A stretch of 64,000 bases of DNA, from NCBI GenBank assembly GCA_016787225.1, contig JAEUUY010000026.1, positions 1-64,000 on the forward strand, in the 5' to 3' direction. A program made the translations under genes and the position numbers. This stretch comes from Chitinophagales bacterium (lineage in GTDB: Bacteria; Bacteroidota; Bacteroidia; Chitinophagales; JADJOU01). Of the stretch, positions 15,954 through 24,598 are shown piece by piece; the stretch's first letter is position 1; every line of letters starts with the position of its first letter. A model generated the notes under the pieces. It was not told where the DNA came from. It saw nothing but the letters and a program-made list of their open reading frames with translations, and ran no database searches.

Positions 15954-18608
15954 ATGTATAATTTTCTACATGTAATAAAACTGAAACGCATACTATCCGT
16001 GAGGTTCTGCGCAATTATTTTATTTATAATCTCTAATTATATTCTGCAAGCTCAATCACTATCGATGAGACTAAAGTTTGAGCAACATGTAGGAGAATAT
16101 CCATTGATCATAGAGGCAGAGCCTGGTCATTTGAATCAATATTTAGAACGAAATAAACAAATTAAAATCGGCACATCTATAGGCAACTATTTTACCATAT
16201 ACGTACCGAAAGAAAATATCCATGACTTATACAAACAAACCTGGATAAGACGAATAGAAGACGGATTGATTGAAATGAGACCCTTGTTGGATTCTGCCAG
16301 AATTCTCAATAACATAGATTCCGTGCACTCTGGAATAGCGCCACTGACTGCAAATTACAAAGGTAGAAATGTTTTGGTAGGGATTATAGATTTCGGATTG
16401 GAGTGGAGGCATTTAGATTTTAAAAACGCCCCCAATGATAGCAGAATATTGGCTCTCTGGGATCAGAATAAAGATAGCATACCTCCTGTAGGATACAGCT
16501 ATGGTCATCTGTGGACTAAAAATGCTATAGACTCAGGCTATTGCAGACATGTAGCTAATATCTCTACGAGTCATGGAACGAATGTAACTGGTATAGCTGT
16601 AGGCAATGGAAATTCTTACTCTCCCAATAGAGGAACTGCTCCTGAAGCAAAAATAGCCTTTGTATCCTTAAAAAATAATTCTGCGTGGTTAAGCAACATG
16701 ATAGATGGTGTACATTATATCCTTAAACTTGCAGATAGCCTCAATTTACCTGCTGTAATTAATCTCAGTGTAGGAACATACGATGGTTCTCACGATGGTA
16801 GAGATGCCAGCACGCGAATGCTAGAAGCTACGCTCAATAAAAAAGGAAGAGCCATTATAGCTGCCTCTGGCAATGCAGGTCACATGAATCAGCATATACG
16901 TTTCACACCTAACAATGATACCAGCTTTTCTGATTTCACTTATTCTTCGGGCTTTCTAGGAACTTATTTTAATTTCTGGGCGGATACGTCAGATGTTCGA
17001 AATTTAATCATTGGAATTCAAGCAGACTCTAATCCTACTTTACTACCTTTATCTCAATCTTATTTTTTCCCATTTAAATCGAGATTCCTTGATTCATTAA
17101 TCAAGTATGGCTATTACGAAGACTCCATGGTAGTTAAAAATATTATTGATAGCCCAATGGGTACAGCAATATTTTATGTCTTAAAACAAGAAAATACTGT
17201 CAATTTTCAATGCTATATCAAACCTAAAAAAACTACCTATCTATGGAGATTCTCCGCTGCTGGTCAGGGAAAATTAGATATGTGGGTACACCCATCCTTA
17301 CAAACAACATCAGCCTTGTATACCAGTCCGTTGCCAACTCCTGCAGTTAATCCTGCTATTGTGCGATACAAACTATCAGATCAGGCATGTTCTATTGTAT
17401 CTGGATTTCAATGTTCGGATAAGATTATAACCGTAGGAAATTATGTCAATAAACATGGAATTATCGATATCGATACCATATATAGAGCATATGGTGGCAA
17501 GCAAAATGAAATAGCCAGTAACTCGAGTAAAGGACCTACACGCGATGATCGCATCAAGCCAGATATCGTAGCCACAGGAGCTGGAACTCTCACTACTATA
17601 GACTCTATCACGGGTGCATCTTATGCAGGGAATGTTTCACTTCGAAGACGATTAGGGATTACAGGAAAATATGTCATAGCCGGAGGAACATCAATGTCTT
17701 CTCCCGTTGTAACAGGAACTCTAGCCTTACTTTTAGAAAAAAAATCAGATTATTGGTCCAGTCAGTTACTCTATCTGCTGAAAAAGACAGCTAAAAAAGA
17801 CAGTTTTACAACACCAATAGCGAATAGCACCTATGGCTATGGCAAAGTCGACGCCTTTCGACTATTGAGCTATCAACCAACCTATGGCTGCAAAGATACT
17901 GGAAGCATTAACTATAGTGTATCTAGTGATTTTGAGGATAGCAGTTTTTGTGTTAAAAAAGTCTATGGATGCACGGACACGGGAAGCATCAACTATAACC
18001 CTTTGGCGAATGTTGATAATGGTTCTTGTATCAAAAAAGTTTATGGATGTACCGACACGGGAAGCATCAACTATAACCCTTTGGCGAATGTCGATAATGG
18101 TTCTTGTATCAAAAAAGTTTATGGATGCACGGACACGGGAAGCATCAACTATAACCCTTTGGCGAATGTTGATAATGGTTCTTGTATCAAAAAAGTTTAT
18201 GGATGTACCGACACGGGAAGTATCAACTATAACCCTTTGGCTAATGTCGATAATGATTCTTGTATCAAAAAAGTTTATGGATGCACAAATCCTAAGGCTA
18301 TAAATTATAATCCCAAAGCAAATGTAAATGATGGCTCATGCGCATTTCCGCCATCATCTATAGTCAACTATGAATCAAATAAACTTGTCATTTATCCTAA
18401 TCCAACAGATGATAAGATATATTTCCATATTCCATCAAACATCAAAAGCCTAGATGTTTCCTTATTTAATGTATATGGAATCAAAATTAGAGATATCAAT
18501 GTGGTTCACCAGAAGGTTGTTTCCTTAGAAAATTTAGCCAAAGGGGTGTATTATTTAGTGGTCTATACAGATGGAACTATGGAGAAATATAGAATTCTAT
18601 TGAAATAA
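15954..18608 (+). CDS. Secreted S8 (subtilisin-like) protease with Cys-rich tandem repeats and T9SS type A sorting domain
   Basis: An 884-residue exported serine protease, numbered from ATG 15954, which precedes a signal peptide ending near ILQAQ. The catalytic triad is visible: Asp146 in VGIIDFGLEWRHLDF, His207 in STSHGTNVTG and Ser580 in GGTSMSSPVVTG. The protease domain carries a long insert between His and Ser, as in other Bacteroidota members. Residues about 645-800 are six 26-residue repeats (YGCTDTGSINYNP...NGSC), each with two Cys that probably pair. The last 75 residues (VIYPNPTDDKIYF to EKYRILLK) are a Por/T9SS type A C-terminal sorting domain, so the protein is sent across the outer membrane and released or attached to the surface. 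Confidence 0.92.
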   Translation: MYNFLHVIKLKRILSVRFCAIILFIISNYILQAQSLSMRLKFEQHVGEYPLIIEAEPGHLNQYLERNKQIKIGTSIGNYFTIYVPKENIHDLYKQTWIRRIEDGLIEMRPLLDSARILNNIDSVHSGIAPLTANYKGRNVLVGIIDFGLEWRHLDFKNAPNDSRILALWDQNKDSIPPVGYSYGHLWTKNAIDSGYCRHVANISTSHGTNVTGIAVGNGNSYSPNRGTAPEAKIAFVSLKNNSAWLSNMIDGVHYILKLADSLNLPAVINLSVGTYDGSHDGRDASTRMLEATLNKKGRAIIAASGNAGHMNQHIRFTPNNDTSFSDFTYSSGFLGTYFNFWADTSDVRNLIIGIQADSNPTLLPLSQSYFFPFKSRFLDSLIKYGYYEDSMVVKNIIDSPMGTAIFYVLKQENTVNFQCYIKPKKTTYLWRFSAAGQGKLDMWVHPSLQTTSALYTSPLPTPAVNPAIVRYKLSDQACSIVSGFQCSDKIITVGNYVNKHGIIDIDTIYRAYGGKQNEIASNSSKGPTRDDRIKPDIVATGAGTLTTIDSITGASYAGNVSLRRRLGITGKYVIAGGTSMSSPVVTGTLALLLEKKSDYWSSQLLYLLKKTAKKDSFTTPIANSTYGYGKVDAFRLLSYQPTYGCKDTGSINYSVSSDFEDSSFCVKKVYGCTDTGSINYNPLANVDNGSCIKKVYGCTDTGSINYNPLANVDNGSCIKKVYGCTDTGSINYNPLANVDNGSCIKKVYGCTDTGSINYNPLANVDNDSCIKKVYGCTNPKAINYNPKANVNDGSCAFPPSSIVNYESNKLVIYPNPTDDKIYFHIPSNIKSLDVSLFNVYGIKIRDINVVHQKVVSLENLAKGVYYLVVYTDGTMEKYRILLK
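17961..18272 (+). repeat. Four near-identical 78-bp intragenic repeats in A-B-A-B order
   Basis: Four units of 78 bp start at 17961, 18039, 18117 and 18195. Units 1 and 3 share GGATGCACGGACACG and GTTGATAAT; units 2 and 4 share GGATGTACCGACACG and GTCGATAAT. The pattern shows duplication of a two-unit, 156-bp block. Degenerate units flank the array on both sides (17883-17960 and 18273-18345). The period is a multiple of three, so copy number can change without breaking the protease frame. Confidence 0.9.
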
Positions 18609-19615: not shown

Positions 19616-20545
19616 ATGTTTAAACACAAGCATTTACTAGGAATAGAACCACTTCATAAAGATGAAATCGTTCAAATTTTGGATCAAGCACAGCAATTCA
19701 AAGACATCATCAATCGACCTGTGAAAAAAGTGCCGACATTGCGCGATTTCACTATAGCTAATTTATTCTTTGAAAATTCAACGCGCACAAAGCTCTCATT
19801 TGAACTAGCGCAGAAGCGACTTTCCGCAGACGTTCTTAATTTTTCGTCTTCTAATTCTTCGGTGAAAAAAGGGGAAACACTGCTCGATACGGTCAATAAT
19901 ATATTGGCTATGAAGGTAGATATGGTCGTCATTAGACACAGTAGCCCAGGTGTTCCTATTTTCCTCTCCAAACATATCGATGCCCATATCGTCAATGCAG
20001 GGGATGGAACGCATGAGCACCCAACGCAGGCATTGCTTGATGCCTTTTCTATTCGCGAAAAACATAGTGGATTCAAAGGACTCAATGTGGCTATTATCGG
20101 TGATATCATGCACTCTAGAGTCGCTCTATCCAATATATTCTGTCTCAAAAAACTAGGAGCGAATGTGAAGCTCTGCGGTCCACCTACCTTGATACCAAAA
20201 TATGTCGAAGAGCTGGGGGTCACCGTGAGTCACAATATAGAAGAAACGCTTGCTTGGTGCGATGTAGCCAATGTACTTCGCATACAAATGGAGCGTGCAG
20301 ACGATGCTTATTTCCCATCGACCAGTGAATATGCACAATTCTATGGAGTCAATATGGAGCGCCTTGATAAACTATCAAAAAACATAACGATACTGCATCC
20401 AGGTCCTATTAATCGAGGCGTCGAAATTACAACGGATGTAGCTGATTCTGCTCATTCCGTCATTCTCGATCAGGTAGAAAATGGCGTCGCCGTGCGAATG
20501 GCAGTAACCTATTTGCTTTTTTCGCAGAGAATGCAGAGAAGTTAA
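19616..20545 (+). CDS. pyrB: Aspartate carbamoyltransferase catalytic subunit
   Basis: A 309-residue enzyme that joins carbamoyl phosphate and aspartate in the second step of de novo pyrimidine synthesis. The carbamoyl-phosphate loop is FFENSTRTKLSFELAQKRL (about 50-68), the 80s-type loop is SSVKKGETLLDT, and the phosphate/aspartate contacts include GDGTHEHPTQALLDAF. The C-terminal HPGPINRGVE motif is also typical. It follows pyrR by 2 bases. No pyrI regulatory subunit gene follows, so a trimeric unregulated enzyme is likely. It converges on the dpnA-like pseudogene, with 9 bases between the ends. Confidence 0.97.
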   Translation: MFKHKHLLGIEPLHKDEIVQILDQAQQFKDIINRPVKKVPTLRDFTIANLFFENSTRTKLSFELAQKRLSADVLNFSSSNSSVKKGETLLDTVNNILAMKVDMVVIRHSSPGVPIFLSKHIDAHIVNAGDGTHEHPTQALLDAFSIREKHSGFKGLNVAIIGDIMHSRVALSNIFCLKKLGANVKLCGPPTLIPKYVEELGVTVSHNIEETLAWCDVANVLRIQMERADDAYFPSTSEYAQFYGVNMERLDKLSKNITILHPGPINRGVEITTDVADSAHSVILDQVENGVAVRMAVTYLLFSQRMQRS

Positions 20546-20554
20546 GTTAGAGAA

Positions 20555-21750
20555 TTAATCCTTCTTAGATTTTAAAATACGATCCAAAGTAGTCAAAGAA
20601 GGTAGGTATTGTCTAAATAAATTCATATTGTAAGAATCGCCCTCATCATAAAGGTTCTGTGCATTCATTTCAAAACAAAACGCAGGCTCCAATGTAAAAT
20701 TTTGATCCAATTTTATCTCATAATAGAGGTGTCGTTTAGAACTACTAATGCTTTCTTCATGTTTCATTAACTTAATAGATTGAATCTTACCATTGAGACC
20801 TGTCAACCTATAGGGCTTGCTCCTACCACCAGAATATAGAACAACGAGAGAACCATCTTCGATACCAATAGGAAAATCTTTGATAGCTAATTTATTATCA
20901 ATAGCATCAAATCTAAATGTATCTTGTTCTAATTTAGACTTTAGACTAGATGATTTGCAAAATCCGAGAACAACTTTAATCTTTTTATCATCCACTTCAC
21001 CTTCTATATGTTTTGCAAAATCTAAACTCGAATTTAATTTTGAAATTTTCTTAATGTAATTTAATCTAGTAGCTTCAACTTCGATTTCACTTTTTCTATT
21101 TTTACTTATTTCAAGAAAATCGATTTCTTTATCTATTCCTAAGAATCTTCTATTGCAAAGATTAGCAGAAATGCCGGTAGTACTGCTGCCTGTAAAAGGG
21201 TCTAGTATCCATGCTCGCGGTTTGGTCGATGCTAAAATCAATCTAGTCAATACCGACAATGGCTTCTGTGTCGGATGCTTACCGCAGGATTTTTCCCACG
21301 GAGATATGGCTGGAAGAGTCCAAACATCTTTCATCTGTTTGTCTCCATTGAGCTTTTTCATCAACTCATAGTTATAATAATGCGGGATTTTTTCAGATTT
21401 TCTAGCCCAGATTATTTGCTCAGTAGAATAAGTAAAATAACGACAAGAAAAATTAGGCGGAGGATTGGTTTTTTCCCAAGTGATGACATTTAGTATTTTA
21501 AAACCTAGCTCTGTCAATATCTGCCCGACTGAAAAAATATTATGCATCGTGCCACTTATCCATATCGTAGCATCTTCTTTCATTTTGTCACGCACCAAAG
21601 AAAGCTACTTTCCATAGAACTGATTAATGTATTCAAAACCGTGATATTTGTCCCAATTACCCTTGTTTACGCCAACAATTTGTCCGTTATAATTGATAGT
21701 CCGTTGTTTGATAAAAAATAGGGTGGGTCAGCAAAAACCATATCAATCAA
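20555..21750 (-). pseudogene. dpnA: DpnA-like GATC adenine methyltransferase, disrupted
   Basis: The intact part (ORF from 21598) contains SCRYFTYSTEQIIWARK, HYYNYELMKKLN, KQMKDVWTLP, GKHPTQKP and the SAM-binding ILDPFTGSSTTG. That is the order in DpnA, the second methylase of the pneumococcal DpnII system. The DPPY motif is encoded upstream as VFADPPYFLSNNG (from about 21741) but is cut off by a one-base frameshift near 21686-21697. The restored frame (VGVNKGNWDKYHGF) then meets TAG at 21605-21607 where a conserved Trp codon TGG is expected. About 30 N-terminal residues are missing altogether, the frame being fused to the end of dpnD. A C-terminal extension of about 170 residues lies beyond the methylase core. 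The protein is most likely inactive. Confidence 0.88.
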
Positions 21751-22057
21751 TTAATGATTTCAATCGTTCTAGATTTTCGAAAATATGGTTTTGGGGTTGA
21801 TTTGACTCTTCAAAATGCTTTTGCTCATCTGAATACAGATAATTAATAACTTCTTTCGTTAGTGAGTTTATCTCATCTGACTTACTTTGGCTGTTTATAT
21901 CGGTAAAATTTACTTCAGCAAAGTCATTGTAGTCTAATACTATTTCTGCTTTTTCATATTGCTCATTTACCTTTGATAAAGCTTCTTGAATGTTCTCAGC
22001 CTGAATTTCTACCACACGAGCAAGTAACTCTTGAATTTCAATTTTAAATGTTTCCAT
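21743..22057 (-). CDS. dpnD: DpnD/PcfM-like protein
   Basis: A 104-residue acidic protein starting at METFKIEIQELLARVVEIQA. The earlier in-frame ATG at 22111 is deep inside dpnC and less likely. The first about 50 residues, with RVVEIQAENIQEALSKV and EIVLDYNDFAEVNF, match the small DpnD-PcfM domain as I recall it. In pneumococcus dpnD follows dpnC in the DpnI cassette, and its function is unknown. The start overlaps the dpnC stop by 14 bases. The frame ends at TGA 21743, exactly where the residual dpnA reading begins, so its 3' end marks a recombination junction. Confidence 0.8.
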   Translation of the reverse strand: METFKIEIQELLARVVEIQAENIQEALSKVNEQYEKAEIVLDYNDFAEVNFTDINSQSKSDEINSLTKEVINYLYSDEQKHFEESNQPQNHIFENLERLKSLID

Positions 22058-22823
22058 ATTTAATTTTTTTGTATTTACCTCGACCAACAAATTCAATAAT
22101 CCCTTTATCACGGAGTATTTGAAGTTGTTGTCTGATTTTGTCTTTAATGAAATTGTTATTAGGATATTTCAATTTGAGTTTATTCTCACAATTATAGACT
22201 TCTTCAAGATTGAAAACATCAGTTTTTATTTCATCAACACACTTCATAATATCTAAAATCCAACCCTTTGCATCACTTGATTTCTGCCTAAGAAACAAAG
22301 TTTTATTAAAAAATTTATTTACCACTTCACGGTCAATAATCTCTGAGTTTTTTACCAAATAAATTTTGCCTGACTCAGCCACTTTGGATATGTCAATATT
22401 GCACCCTATCCATCCTGCTCTCCTTGCCGTTAGAGCTAATGGTGATCTTTTAATGATAATTTCTTCTGTAAAGAATTGTTTAGGAATAATCAAAAAGTCG
22501 TTAACACTCCAATTCTTTGAATATGTTAGAAAGAAAAAATTTGGATTGTTTTCAGAGTTTATTCTTTCAATCATTGTTGAATAAGCTCCGTCCGTAATTG
22601 TATTCGTGAGTTCCCCACCCTTACTTTTTAATTCAAATTCTTCTAAACATTTTTTGCAATAAAAGTCAGCAACAGGTCTATTGTTTTCAAATTCATTTAA
22701 TGGTAAATCTCCGCAACTAGGACAATATGAATTGTTTAGAACCCAATTTTCTGTGAGAATTCTCGCTATTTGAGAATTACTTTGATAACCTTCTGCAAGT
22801 TTTAAGTTAAACAATAGATTCAT
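22044..22823 (-). CDS. dpnC: DpnI-like methyl-directed restriction endonuclease
   Basis: A 259-residue protein that closely follows DpnI along its whole length. DpnI cleaves GATC only when the adenine is N6-methylated. The PD-(D/E)xK catalytic residues are Asp53, Glu64 and Lys66 (PVADFYCKKCLEEFELKSK), at the same numbers as in DpnI. The zinc site is Cys34, Cys37, Cys56 and Cys59. The C-terminal winged-helix region carries IRQQLQILRDKGIIEF and GRGKYKK, nearly identical to DpnI. No lesion is seen. It starts 2 bases after the dpnM stop and overlaps dpnD by 14 bases. Its activity would be lethal beside a working GATC methylase. Confidence 0.94.
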   Translation of the reverse strand: MNLLFNLKLAEGYQSNSQIARILTENWVLNNSYCPSCGDLPLNEFENNRPVADFYCKKCLEEFELKSKGGELTNTITDGAYSTMIERINSENNPNFFFLTYSKNWSVNDFLIIPKQFFTEEIIIKRSPLALTARRAGWIGCNIDISKVAESGKIYLVKNSEIIDREVVNKFFNKTLFLRQKSSDAKGWILDIMKCVDEIKTDVFNLEEVYNCENKLKLKYPNNNFIKDKIRQQLQILRDKGIIEFVGRGKYKKIKYGNI

Positions 22824-22825
22824 TC

Positions 22826-23779
22826 TTAGCAGAAAGTTGCGTTAGGGATAGAAGTGGAAAGTCCGCAGCGAAGCGAGGACTTGCAACGGATAGCCCGACC
22901 CGATAGGGGAACGCCCAAATAATTTTTTTCAGGATTTGCATTTATACTTCGTTTAGCTTCAACCCTTTCAATTTTAAAATCTGCATTTAATTCGTTAAAA
23001 AAATTGTCATTCTCATCTTTGCCCATAAAGTATAAATTACTCAATATCCAATGATGGCCCAATATATCCAGATTATTACAAAAATTTCTCAATCGCTCCT
23101 GTTCCGCATCGTCAAATACTTCCTGTGCATAGGTATTAAAACTAGAAGTCTGGCTGAGTGGCTTGTAAGGTGGGTCTAGGTAAAAAAGACTTGGCTTGTC
23201 TATTCCCGAGAGTGTATCCTCAAAATCACCACAGCGCATTACTACCTTTTTCAGTGCTTCGTGTACAGCTAATATATTTTCTTTTTGGCATATAGTAGGC
23301 AAGGTATATCTACCTATAGGTACATTATATTTGTTTTTCCTATTGACACGATAGAGTCCATTGAAGCAGGTTTTATTTAGAAAAATAAATAAGGCTGCCT
23401 GATGTATATTATCTGATTTTCTGCTATTAAAAATAGTTCTTTTCTCAGCATAATATTCACGGCGTCTCTCTTCAAGCTTATCAACTGCATGAAATTCTTC
23501 TTGCCATTCATTGAGAAGCGAAATAAGTTGTATTGGTTGGCTAGCAATAATCTGATAACAATTTACGAGGTCAGCATTGATATCATTGATGATGGCATGT
23601 TCTATTTTTGGAAATTCATTCAATACCCAAAACAACACAGCACCACTGCCTACGAAGGGTTCTACATAAGTGGATTTTTCCGAATAGAATCTTTTGGGTA
23701 TTCTTTTAGAAATCTCTGCGAGAAGTTGTGTTTTACCCCCTGCCCATTTTAGAAAGGGTTTGGCTACAATATTTGACAT
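22826..23779 (-). CDS. dpnM: Dam/DpnM-like GATC adenine methyltransferase with replaced C-terminus
   Basis: A 317-residue class alpha m6A methylase of the Dam/DpnM group. Visible motifs are FLKWAGGKTQLL (9-20), VEPFVGSGAVLF (39-50), the target-region segment NGLYRVNRKNKYNVPIGRY (140-158), the catalytic DPPY at 202-205 and AKRSINANPEK (275-285). Family members then end with a Gly-x-(I/V)-x-E-(L/I)-L-I strand. Here residues from about 286 (NYLGVPLSGRAIRC...) are encoded by an unrelated palindromic repeat, so the last strand is lost and about 32 foreign residues are added. Activity is doubtful but not excluded. A TATATTTG -7 box is 17 bases upstream of the start. Confidence 0.88.
   Translation of the reverse strand: MSNIVAKPFLKWAGGKTQLLAEISKRIPKRFYSEKSTYVEPFVGSGAVLFWVLNEFPKIEHAIINDINADLVNCYQIIASQPIQLISLLNEWQEEFHAVDKLEERRREYYAEKRTIFNSRKSDNIHQAALFIFLNKTCFNGLYRVNRKNKYNVPIGRYTLPTICQKENILAVHEALKKVVMRCGDFEDTLSGIDKPSLFYLDPPYKPLSQTSSFNTYAQEVFDDAEQERLRNFCNNLDILGHHWILSNLYFMGKDENDNFFNELNADFKIERVEAKRSINANPEKNYLGVPLSGRAIRCKSSLRCGLSTSIPNATFC
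22839..22917. repeat. Interspersed palindromic repeat inserted at the dpnM 3' end
   Basis: On the minus strand the element runs from GGGCGTTCCCC through CGGGTCGGGCTATCCG and a hairpin with arms AAGTCC and GGACTT to TCTATCCCTAACGC. The GCGTT and AACGC ends form an inverted pair. It resembles a GGGCGTT...CCCTAACGC repeat that I recall as common between genes in Bacteroidota. It supplies the alien C-terminus of the methylase and stops about 16 bases before the dpnC start. Confidence 0.6.
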
Positions 23780-23795
23780 ATAACTATTATAGAGA

Positions 23796-23803
23796 CAAAT
23801 ATA
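23796..23803 (-). promoter_or_regulatory. -7 box upstream of the dpn-like operon
   Basis: The minus strand reads TATATTTG, 17 bases before the dpnM start. As no other good box is seen before dpnC, it may drive the whole operon including the DpnI-like nuclease. Confidence 0.5.
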
Positions 23804-23860
23804 ACCAAAGTTTCATTGGAATTTAGCTTGATTATCCACAAAATTCATATAAAGTTTTGG

Positions 23861-24598
23861 TTAAACTCCCTTCTTCCTCAACACAAAATTCTGACCGAGA
23901 TATACTTTTCGAACCGTTTCATCTTGGCTGAGTTCTTCGGCGGTACCTGATTTCAGAACACTTCCTTCGAAAAGCAGATAAGCTCTTTCGATAATGGAAA
24001 GAGTTTCTTGCACATTATGGTCTGTAATCAAGACTCCTATATTTTTATCTTTGAGTTGAACCACTATTTTCTGAATATCCTCTACAGCAATTGGGTCTAT
24101 CCCTGCAAAGGGTTCGTCTAGTAAAATGAAAGCAGGACTCGTAGCCAGACAGCGCGCTATTTCGGTTCTTCTTCTCTCACCTCCCGAAAGCACATCGCCA
24201 TTGCTCTTGCGAACGTGTCCCAGTCTAAATTCTGCTATTAAATTTTCCAATCTATCTTTTTGTTCCTGCTTAGAAAGATTTGTCATCTCCAATACAGCGA
24301 GAATATTATCCTCCACGGTCATTTTTCTAAAAACAGAAGGTTCTTGCGGTAAATAACCTATTCCCATTTGAGCTCGCTTATACATTGGTATCTTGGTGAT
24401 CTCTTCCTCATTGAGAAATACCTTACCTCCATCGGGTTTGATTAAACCCACCGTGATATAAAATGATGTCGTCTTCCCTGCACCGTTGGGTCCTAGCAAG
24501 CCAACAATTTCACCTTGCTTGACTTCGATCGATACATCATTGACGACCTTTCTGCCTTTATATGCCTTGACTATATGTTCTGTGCGTAATACTTTCAA
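23861..24598 (-). CDS. lptB: LPS export ABC transporter ATP-binding protein LptB
   Basis: A 245-residue ABC ATPase that powers extraction of lipopolysaccharide from the inner membrane with LptF/LptG. Walker A is GPNGAGKT (36-43), the signature LSGGERRR (137-144) and Walker B FILLDEP (157-163). The sequence around the signature ([17 protein letters not shown] then [13 protein letters not shown]) is the LptB subgroup pattern. It is transcribed away from dpnM, on the same strand, after the SUI1 gene. LptA, LptC and LptF/G are not in the window. Confidence 0.95.

Follow-up and report, generated by a model that had tools for sequence, protein, structure and literature searches.

A DpnI nuclease gene lodged between the broken ends of DpnII-type methylase genes in a Chitinophagales bacterium, and the recurrence of the arrangement

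How does a nuclease gene come to lie between genes for the very methylases with which its product is incompatible? The question is raised by a locus in the window, that is, the whole 64,000-nt stretch of contig JAEUUY010000026.1 analysed here, from a Chitinophagales bacterium (assembly GCA_016787225.1; hereafter G000, the genome under study). Re-examination of its minus strand upheld the gene order and coordinates of a first-pass annotation made from the sequence alone: a Dam/DpnM-type gene, dpnC, dpnD and a dpnA-like gene within 20555–23803. Streptococcus pneumoniae reportedly carries DpnI and DpnII as complementary cassettes, as Lacks et al. are said to have described in 1986. The nuclease kills GATC-methylating cells, and its simple acquisition by a DpnII or Dam cell is therefore barred. 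Yet here a DpnI gene is enclosed by the truncated remains of the two methylase genes with which DpnI is incompatible, and chance is excluded by the profile scores and by the conservation of this synteny in relatives. The locus is quite probably a DpnI-type methyl-directed restriction locus that arose by replacement of the middle of a DpnII operon, in which entry of the nuclease module would have broken the methylases and dpnC would have captured the promoter and start of dpnM.

The nuclease gene itself is complete. DpnC (22044–22823, on the minus strand like every feature of the unit; PF06044 and PF17726) aligns with the pneumococcal DpnI structure 4esj over its full length and without gaps (E=6e-104), and the alignment bears out the earlier statement that Asp53, Glu64, Lys66 and the four zinc cysteines (C34, C37, C56 and C59) are kept. 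The methyl-pocket residues of DpnI, L129, R135, W138 and G140 (PMC4117772), are likewise conserved. The protein thus has the attributes of the DpnI endonuclease family, namely the PD-(D/E)xK residues, the zinc cysteines, a C-terminal winged helix and both Pfam domains, and it is encoded by the sole DpnI-family gene of G000. As expected of a DpnI-type locus, dpnC is succeeded by dpnD (21743–22057, ATG at 22057; DpnD/PcfM family, PF14207), which overlaps its end. Carriage of DpnI by plasmids or phages was considered and rejected: matches in the plasmid collection were only two chromosome-sized gonococcal records, and phage matches were limited to the winged-helix part.

On the upstream side, the dpnM open reading frame (23779–22826) scores 274.9 bits against TIGR00571 (cut-off 114.85), with 2dpm as the best match in the PDB. 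Its native sequence ends at ...RSINANPEK, at about 22925, so that the left stump, dpnM' (22925–23779; TIGR00571, PF02086), is a Dam/DpnM-type GATC adenine methylase gene without its last ~22 codons, in keeping with the 3' loss noticed in the first pass. Beyond this point the dpnM frame stays open throughout a foreign intergenic repeat of ~100 bp that forms the junction (22826–22921, approximate bounds), and it stops 5 nt before the dpnC ATG. With dpnM truncated at its junction with dpnC, the arrangement qualifies as a dam-replacing (drg-like) insertion. The missing C-terminal segment (RGxLxELLITN...), which we take to be the last core strand of the methyltransferase fold, is kept in 6/6 intact DpnII loci, where dpnM reaches its native C-terminus; in none of the 82 DpnI loci surveyed below is it kept, and in none does a dpnM beside dpnC reach that end. 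An AlphaFold model of the truncated protein has middling confidence overall, a low-confidence tail and no strand replacing the missing one. Lacking the C-terminal segment, the truncated dpnM is likely to be without activity.

Was the gene an old ruin before it was cut? The many derived changes in the window dpnM (21.5% at first and 13.1% at second codon positions that are otherwise conserved) suggested relaxed selection, which was ruled out by the conserved-residue and stop-codon tests. The gene keeps 36 of 37 universally conserved residues and 59 of 65 that are invariant in Bacteroidota; over its 280 codons there are no stops, against 12.6 expected under random substitutions, 99 amino-acid changes, against 173 expected, and no net indel. 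By these residue, stop and amino-acid-change counts, the window dpnM is a divergent lineage long under selection and only later truncated. Gradual decay of the methylases, as first proposed, does not fit this gene, whose core is conserved and whose loss is a clean 3' truncation common to many loci.

The dpnA gene is more plainly broken than dpnM. A remnant of its 5' part (21605–21746; DMVFADPPYFLSNNG...), which follows dpnD from 21744 and keeps DMVFADPPY, has lost the first ~31 codons including the start, and carries a frameshift near 21702–21676 and an in-frame TAG at 21607–21605. The 3' part, or right stump (20555–21604; PF01555, in an open reading frame at 21598–20555), is open to the native end, has a ~150-amino-acid (aa) C-terminal extension and keeps 107 of 109 invariant columns. 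The start is therefore missing, as the first pass had it, though the lesion is a remnant with a frameshift and a TAG and not the simple truncation then described. The noted absence of dpnB holds genome-wide, a search of the whole of G000 with PF04556 giving zero matches. With dpnB absent, dpnM lacking its C-terminal segment, and dpnA frameshifted, interrupted by a stop and without a start, the locus is not a DpnII restriction-modification operon.

The stump pattern is far more general than one locus. One genome per species yielded 80 close DpnI loci, which with the window and a locus from G017, a genome from another family of the order, made 82. The set consists of the window's nearest DpnI relatives, with a bias to Bacteroidota, and stumps were detected with Bacteroidota queries, which miss short or distant remnants. 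A methylase stump adjoins dpnC in 51 of the 82 loci. Upstream it is the 5' end of dpnM in 41 and of dpnA in 2, downstream the 3' end of dpnA in 32, and 24 loci have stumps on both sides; in controls, the dpnM N-terminal motif occurred in 18 of 3577 windows. Stumps range from ~8 to ~295 aa and retain the outer end of the gene, that is, the dpnM start or the dpnA end. Relatives with the present gene order and all four genes intact, which the first-pass annotation had named as evidence that would tell against it, were looked for, and none was found among those examined. Stumps occur in isolates (Pelobium manganitolerans, Flavobacterium cyanobacteriorum and Moraxella), and Flavobacterium ammonificans and Streptococcus anginosus, both with complete genomes, carry short ones. 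The stumps are therefore not a metagenome artefact; a congener of G000 has the same arrangement too. In the variant with dpnA, the gene immediately preceding dpnC is a 5' stump of dpnA in place of dpnM (L018:2646-3269, a Lentimicrobiaceae metagenome-assembled genome (MAG), and L079:5796-5993, a Patescibacteria MAG). A Brumimicrobium MAG has, just upstream of dpnC but in the opposite orientation, a dpnA-like gene of nearly full length (L066:5074-5925, minus strand); there DpnI might coexist with a GATC single-stranded DNA methylase.

Which piece of the parent operon was replaced? A search for the DpnII family in 296 genomes of the phylum gave few full operons, and an order-wide dpnB search supplied the useful ones. 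In Bacteroidota the order was dpnM-dpnB-(x)-dpnA, x standing for a variable gene, in 5/5 operons with all three genes, so that dpnCD occupies the position of dpnB. In S. anginosus, DpnI is flanked on one side by a 5' stump of dpnM and on the other by a 3' stump of dpnB, 33 residues long and interrupted by a stop; the S. pneumoniae DpnII operon reads dpnM-dpnA-dpnB. The stumps, dpnM and dpnB in S. anginosus and dpnM and dpnA in Bacteroidota, therefore match the outer ends of the DpnII operon that each lineage would be expected to have. An earlier claim, that dpnCD replaced the dpnM-dpnA junction, was right in that the interior of a DpnII-type operon was replaced and both methylases truncated; given the Bacteroidota order, the piece removed was rather dpnB and the methylase ends. 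The slot between dpnB (or dpnD) and dpnA also holds variable cargo (L120:5706-7367, L143:3685-5454, L141:3309-3863 and L119:4634-5858), including a GmrSD-type restriction protein, an ATPase with OLD-like features, a 184-aa unknown protein, and RhuM (PF13310) with a 73-aa unknown protein; RhuM recurs in this slot in hybrids L007, L014, L017, L019, L027, L062 and L068.

Comparison of the hybrids with one another points to repeated assembly. When long dpnM genes are placed in one tree, the hybrid stumps are interleaved with intact DpnM (the 7 intact rows need 7 changes, of which at least 5 are forced by well-supported branches), and in the dpnC tree the loci with stumps lie scattered (24 changes, of which at least 13 are forced). 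L003, from a Taibaiella MAG, and L005, from F. cyanobacteriorum, share 98.7% nucleotide identity in dpnC but 83.3% in dpnM, with the step from ~82% to ~99% falling inside dpnM, ~60 bp short of the stump's end. The window and L002 are 65% identical in dpnM and 90-95% identical from the repeat onward. The repeat (TTTGGGCGTTCCC...GGGTCGGGCT...CCCTAACGCAA) lies at the same dpnM/dpnC junction in 18 loci. It is single-copy in G000 and in the congener G001, in both cases at the Dpn junction; no copy was found in congeners G002 and G003, and G017 has at least four dispersed copies, on contigs C32, C65, C173 and C184. Because of the identity jumps in the two pairs and this distribution of the repeat, the repeat-dpnC module must be foreign to the dpnM that it adjoins, the repeat, itself foreign to G000, having hitch-hiked with dpnC. 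Its identity as an integron attC site was rejected, since its ends, GTT...AAC, are of opposite polarity. These mosaics show movement of the module from one genome to another, with breakpoints inside dpnM, and repeated formation of hybrids, and they lend support to operon-level DpnI/DpnII exchange.

The exchange does not seem to have taken place where the unit now lies. The whole unit (20546–23860) stands between convergent pyrB (19616–20545, plus strand) and lptB (23861–24598, minus strand). In G002 and G003, pyrB and lptB are convergent neighbours ~16 bp apart, and in G001 the site holds an SDR-type gene while the Dpn hybrid of that genome is on another contig. With the site empty in two congeners and filled by an unrelated gene in a third, the hybrid unit, or its immediate parent, was inserted whole at pyrB–lptB. 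The earlier reading, a cassette switch caught part way at this position, is accordingly not supported, and close relatives do not alternate between DpnI and DpnII at this site, where the congeners are without DpnII. As an observation in its own right, this convergent junction is a variable insertion site in the genus (window; L146, L147 and L148). Elsewhere in the window, near-identical tandem repeats (CTDTGSINYNPLANVDNGSCIKKVYG; 17884–18600) lie near the C-terminus of a subtilisin-like secreted protein.

Why should the start of dpnM be the part most often kept? A Bacteroidota -7-type promoter motif, TAnnTTTG (TATATTTG, 23796–23803), lies 24 nt upstream of the dpnM start and would be active here. 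The motif occurs at most 110 nt upstream of the stump in 24/40 dpnM-stump loci against 270/3614 background windows (7.5%, p=4e-17), and the dpnM frame stops between -6 and +2 of the dpnC ATG in 26/41 loci against 12/86 control frames (p=4e-8), p-values that overstate independence because 18 of the loci share the repeat junction. We infer that dpnC owes its transcription to the dpnM promoter and its translation to coupling with the frame of the dpnM leader; such use would explain both the retention of the dpnM start and the ending of its frame just before the dpnC ATG.

Taken together, these data can be ordered as follows. A module comprising the dpnM tail, the repeat, dpnC and dpnD would enter a resident DpnII operon by recombination through its methylase genes, an event of which the mosaics are the record and homologous recombination the presumed mechanism; dpnB would thereby be lost and dpnM and dpnA cut, as the anatomy implies. 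One event would thus remove the DpnII nuclease, break both GATC methylases and install DpnI. GATC methylation would then fade with replication until DpnI becomes tolerable, dpnC being expressed, as the statistics above suggest, from the promoter and translation start of dpnM. The finished unit also moves whole, as it did into pyrB–lptB, later than hybrid formation. In the outcome, DpnI would cut incoming Gm6ATC DNA while the host's own GATC sites would be unmethylated. Entry through the methylase ends may be the main survivable way for a GATC-methylated cell to gain DpnI, and the recurring scar suggests that DpnI usually enters genomes by knocking out methylases in the same step. With less assurance than for the origin of the locus itself, we lean towards a wider claim: that in at least four phyla DpnI genes spread as methylase-killing recombination modules, with resident methylase ends as landing arms and the dpnM promoter and start captured by in-frame leader coupling.

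Several points weigh against this origin by operon replacement. The 41 loci with a dpnM stump lack independence. Since the core of dpnM retains its catalytic residues, loss of function hangs on the missing C-terminal segment, and the AlphaFold model, for all its low-confidence tail and lack of a replacing strand, is too uncertain to decide activity. Of the surveyed DpnI loci, 31/82 have no detectable stumps, and other routes or complete erosion therefore exist; several loci, L003 included, are MAG contigs. G000 has a second D12 adenine methylase gene (G000:C18:44628-45245, L150), below the Dam cut-off, which adjoins a C5 methylase gene and a conjugation-like ATPase gene in a mobile-looking region and would conflict with DpnI if it methylated GATC. 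The account also leaves unexplained what becomes of methylation already present when the switch occurs.

Could all hybrids descend from one ancient event? On this account dpnB gave way to dpnCD a single time and ordinary horizontal transfer then carried the hybrid unit onward, with stump lengths reflecting later erosion and mosaic dpnM trees occasional gene conversion. The NANPEK-repeat junction common to many loci across phyla would be expected, as would the whole-unit movement at pyrB–lptB and the moderate correlation of distances among dpnC, dpnM and dpnA (Spearman 0.42-0.44). It fits poorly with hybrid dpnM stumps that are nearest to different intact DpnM genes, with the L003/L005 and window/L002 breakpoints within dpnM, with an S. 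anginosus locus built on another operon order, and with the upstream dpnA 5' stumps of L018 and L079, and we regard a single origin as unlikely. Far less plausible is that the methylases function despite their truncation, or have taken on a new role, in a four-gene system that keeps methylation and DpnI apart by timing or specificity. The window dpnM, with its catalytic motifs and its low counts of stops and changes, would agree with this, and stumps of most other hybrids look as constrained as intact genes, but such constraint may predate recent truncation. Many stumps (8-126 aa) are far too short for enzymes, all long ones lack the C-terminal segment kept by every intact DpnM, several dpnA stumps have stops or no start, and co-expression of a GATC methylase with DpnI should be lethal. 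That assembly or binning joined DpnI and DpnII strains can practically be dismissed: G000 is a 34-contig draft and the junction contains a repeat, but that repeat is single-copy in G000, and the congener, isolates and complete genomes noted above tell the same story.

If operon replacement is the origin of these loci, immunity and its own precondition would be installed in one step. The stumps would record how the barrier to acquisition is crossed, the DpnI gene entering through the methylases and breaking them, and what was a single pneumococcal story would become a recurrent process with dozens of natural replicates. The combination of a dpnM start, dpnC and a dpnA end would serve as a simple sequence marker for lineages predicted to be GATC-unmethylated, and the order of switching and the role of the dpnM leader become directly testable.

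Related arrangements have been published outside the Firmicutes, and the novelty first claimed on that ground is lost. A 2024 survey describes frameshifted methylases beside DpnI-like genes in a Bacteroidota genome (CP064983.1) and in Moraxella ovis (CP011158.1), read as conflict avoidance (PMC11037411). These cases resemble ours in that a DpnI-like gene lies next to an inactivated methylase; in the accessible part of that source they are isolated, the methylases are not identified as DpnII operon ends, and recurrence, mosaic breakpoints and promoter or start capture are not reported. In the open-licence literature no account came to light of stumps on both sides, of their link to DpnII operon ends or of leader coupling, which is not proof of novelty. 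A direct precedent, the neisserial dam-replacing gene drg, truncates dam, drg+ and dam+ being mutually exclusive (PMC4269198, PMC516771), and it is likewise a DpnI-family nuclease gene inserted in, and truncating, a dam-family gene. It differs in occupying a single Dam locus beside leuS, without the dpnD/dpnA sandwich, the repeat junction or two-sided stumps, and leader-frame coupling is not reported for it (PMC4269198, PMC516771). The other direct precedent is the pneumococcal DpnI/DpnII alternation (PMC3573125, PMC4263131), with which our loci share dpnC-dpnD, homologues of dpnM, dpnA and dpnB, the mutual exclusion of DpnI and GATC methylases, and replacement at one locus. Unlike the pneumococcal cassettes, which are exchanged as whole units via outside flanks, the hybrids described here have their exchanging ends inside dpnM and dpnA, leave stumps in the DpnI locus, derive, in Bacteroidota, from operons of the order dpnM-dpnB-(x)-dpnA and occupy several chromosomal sites.

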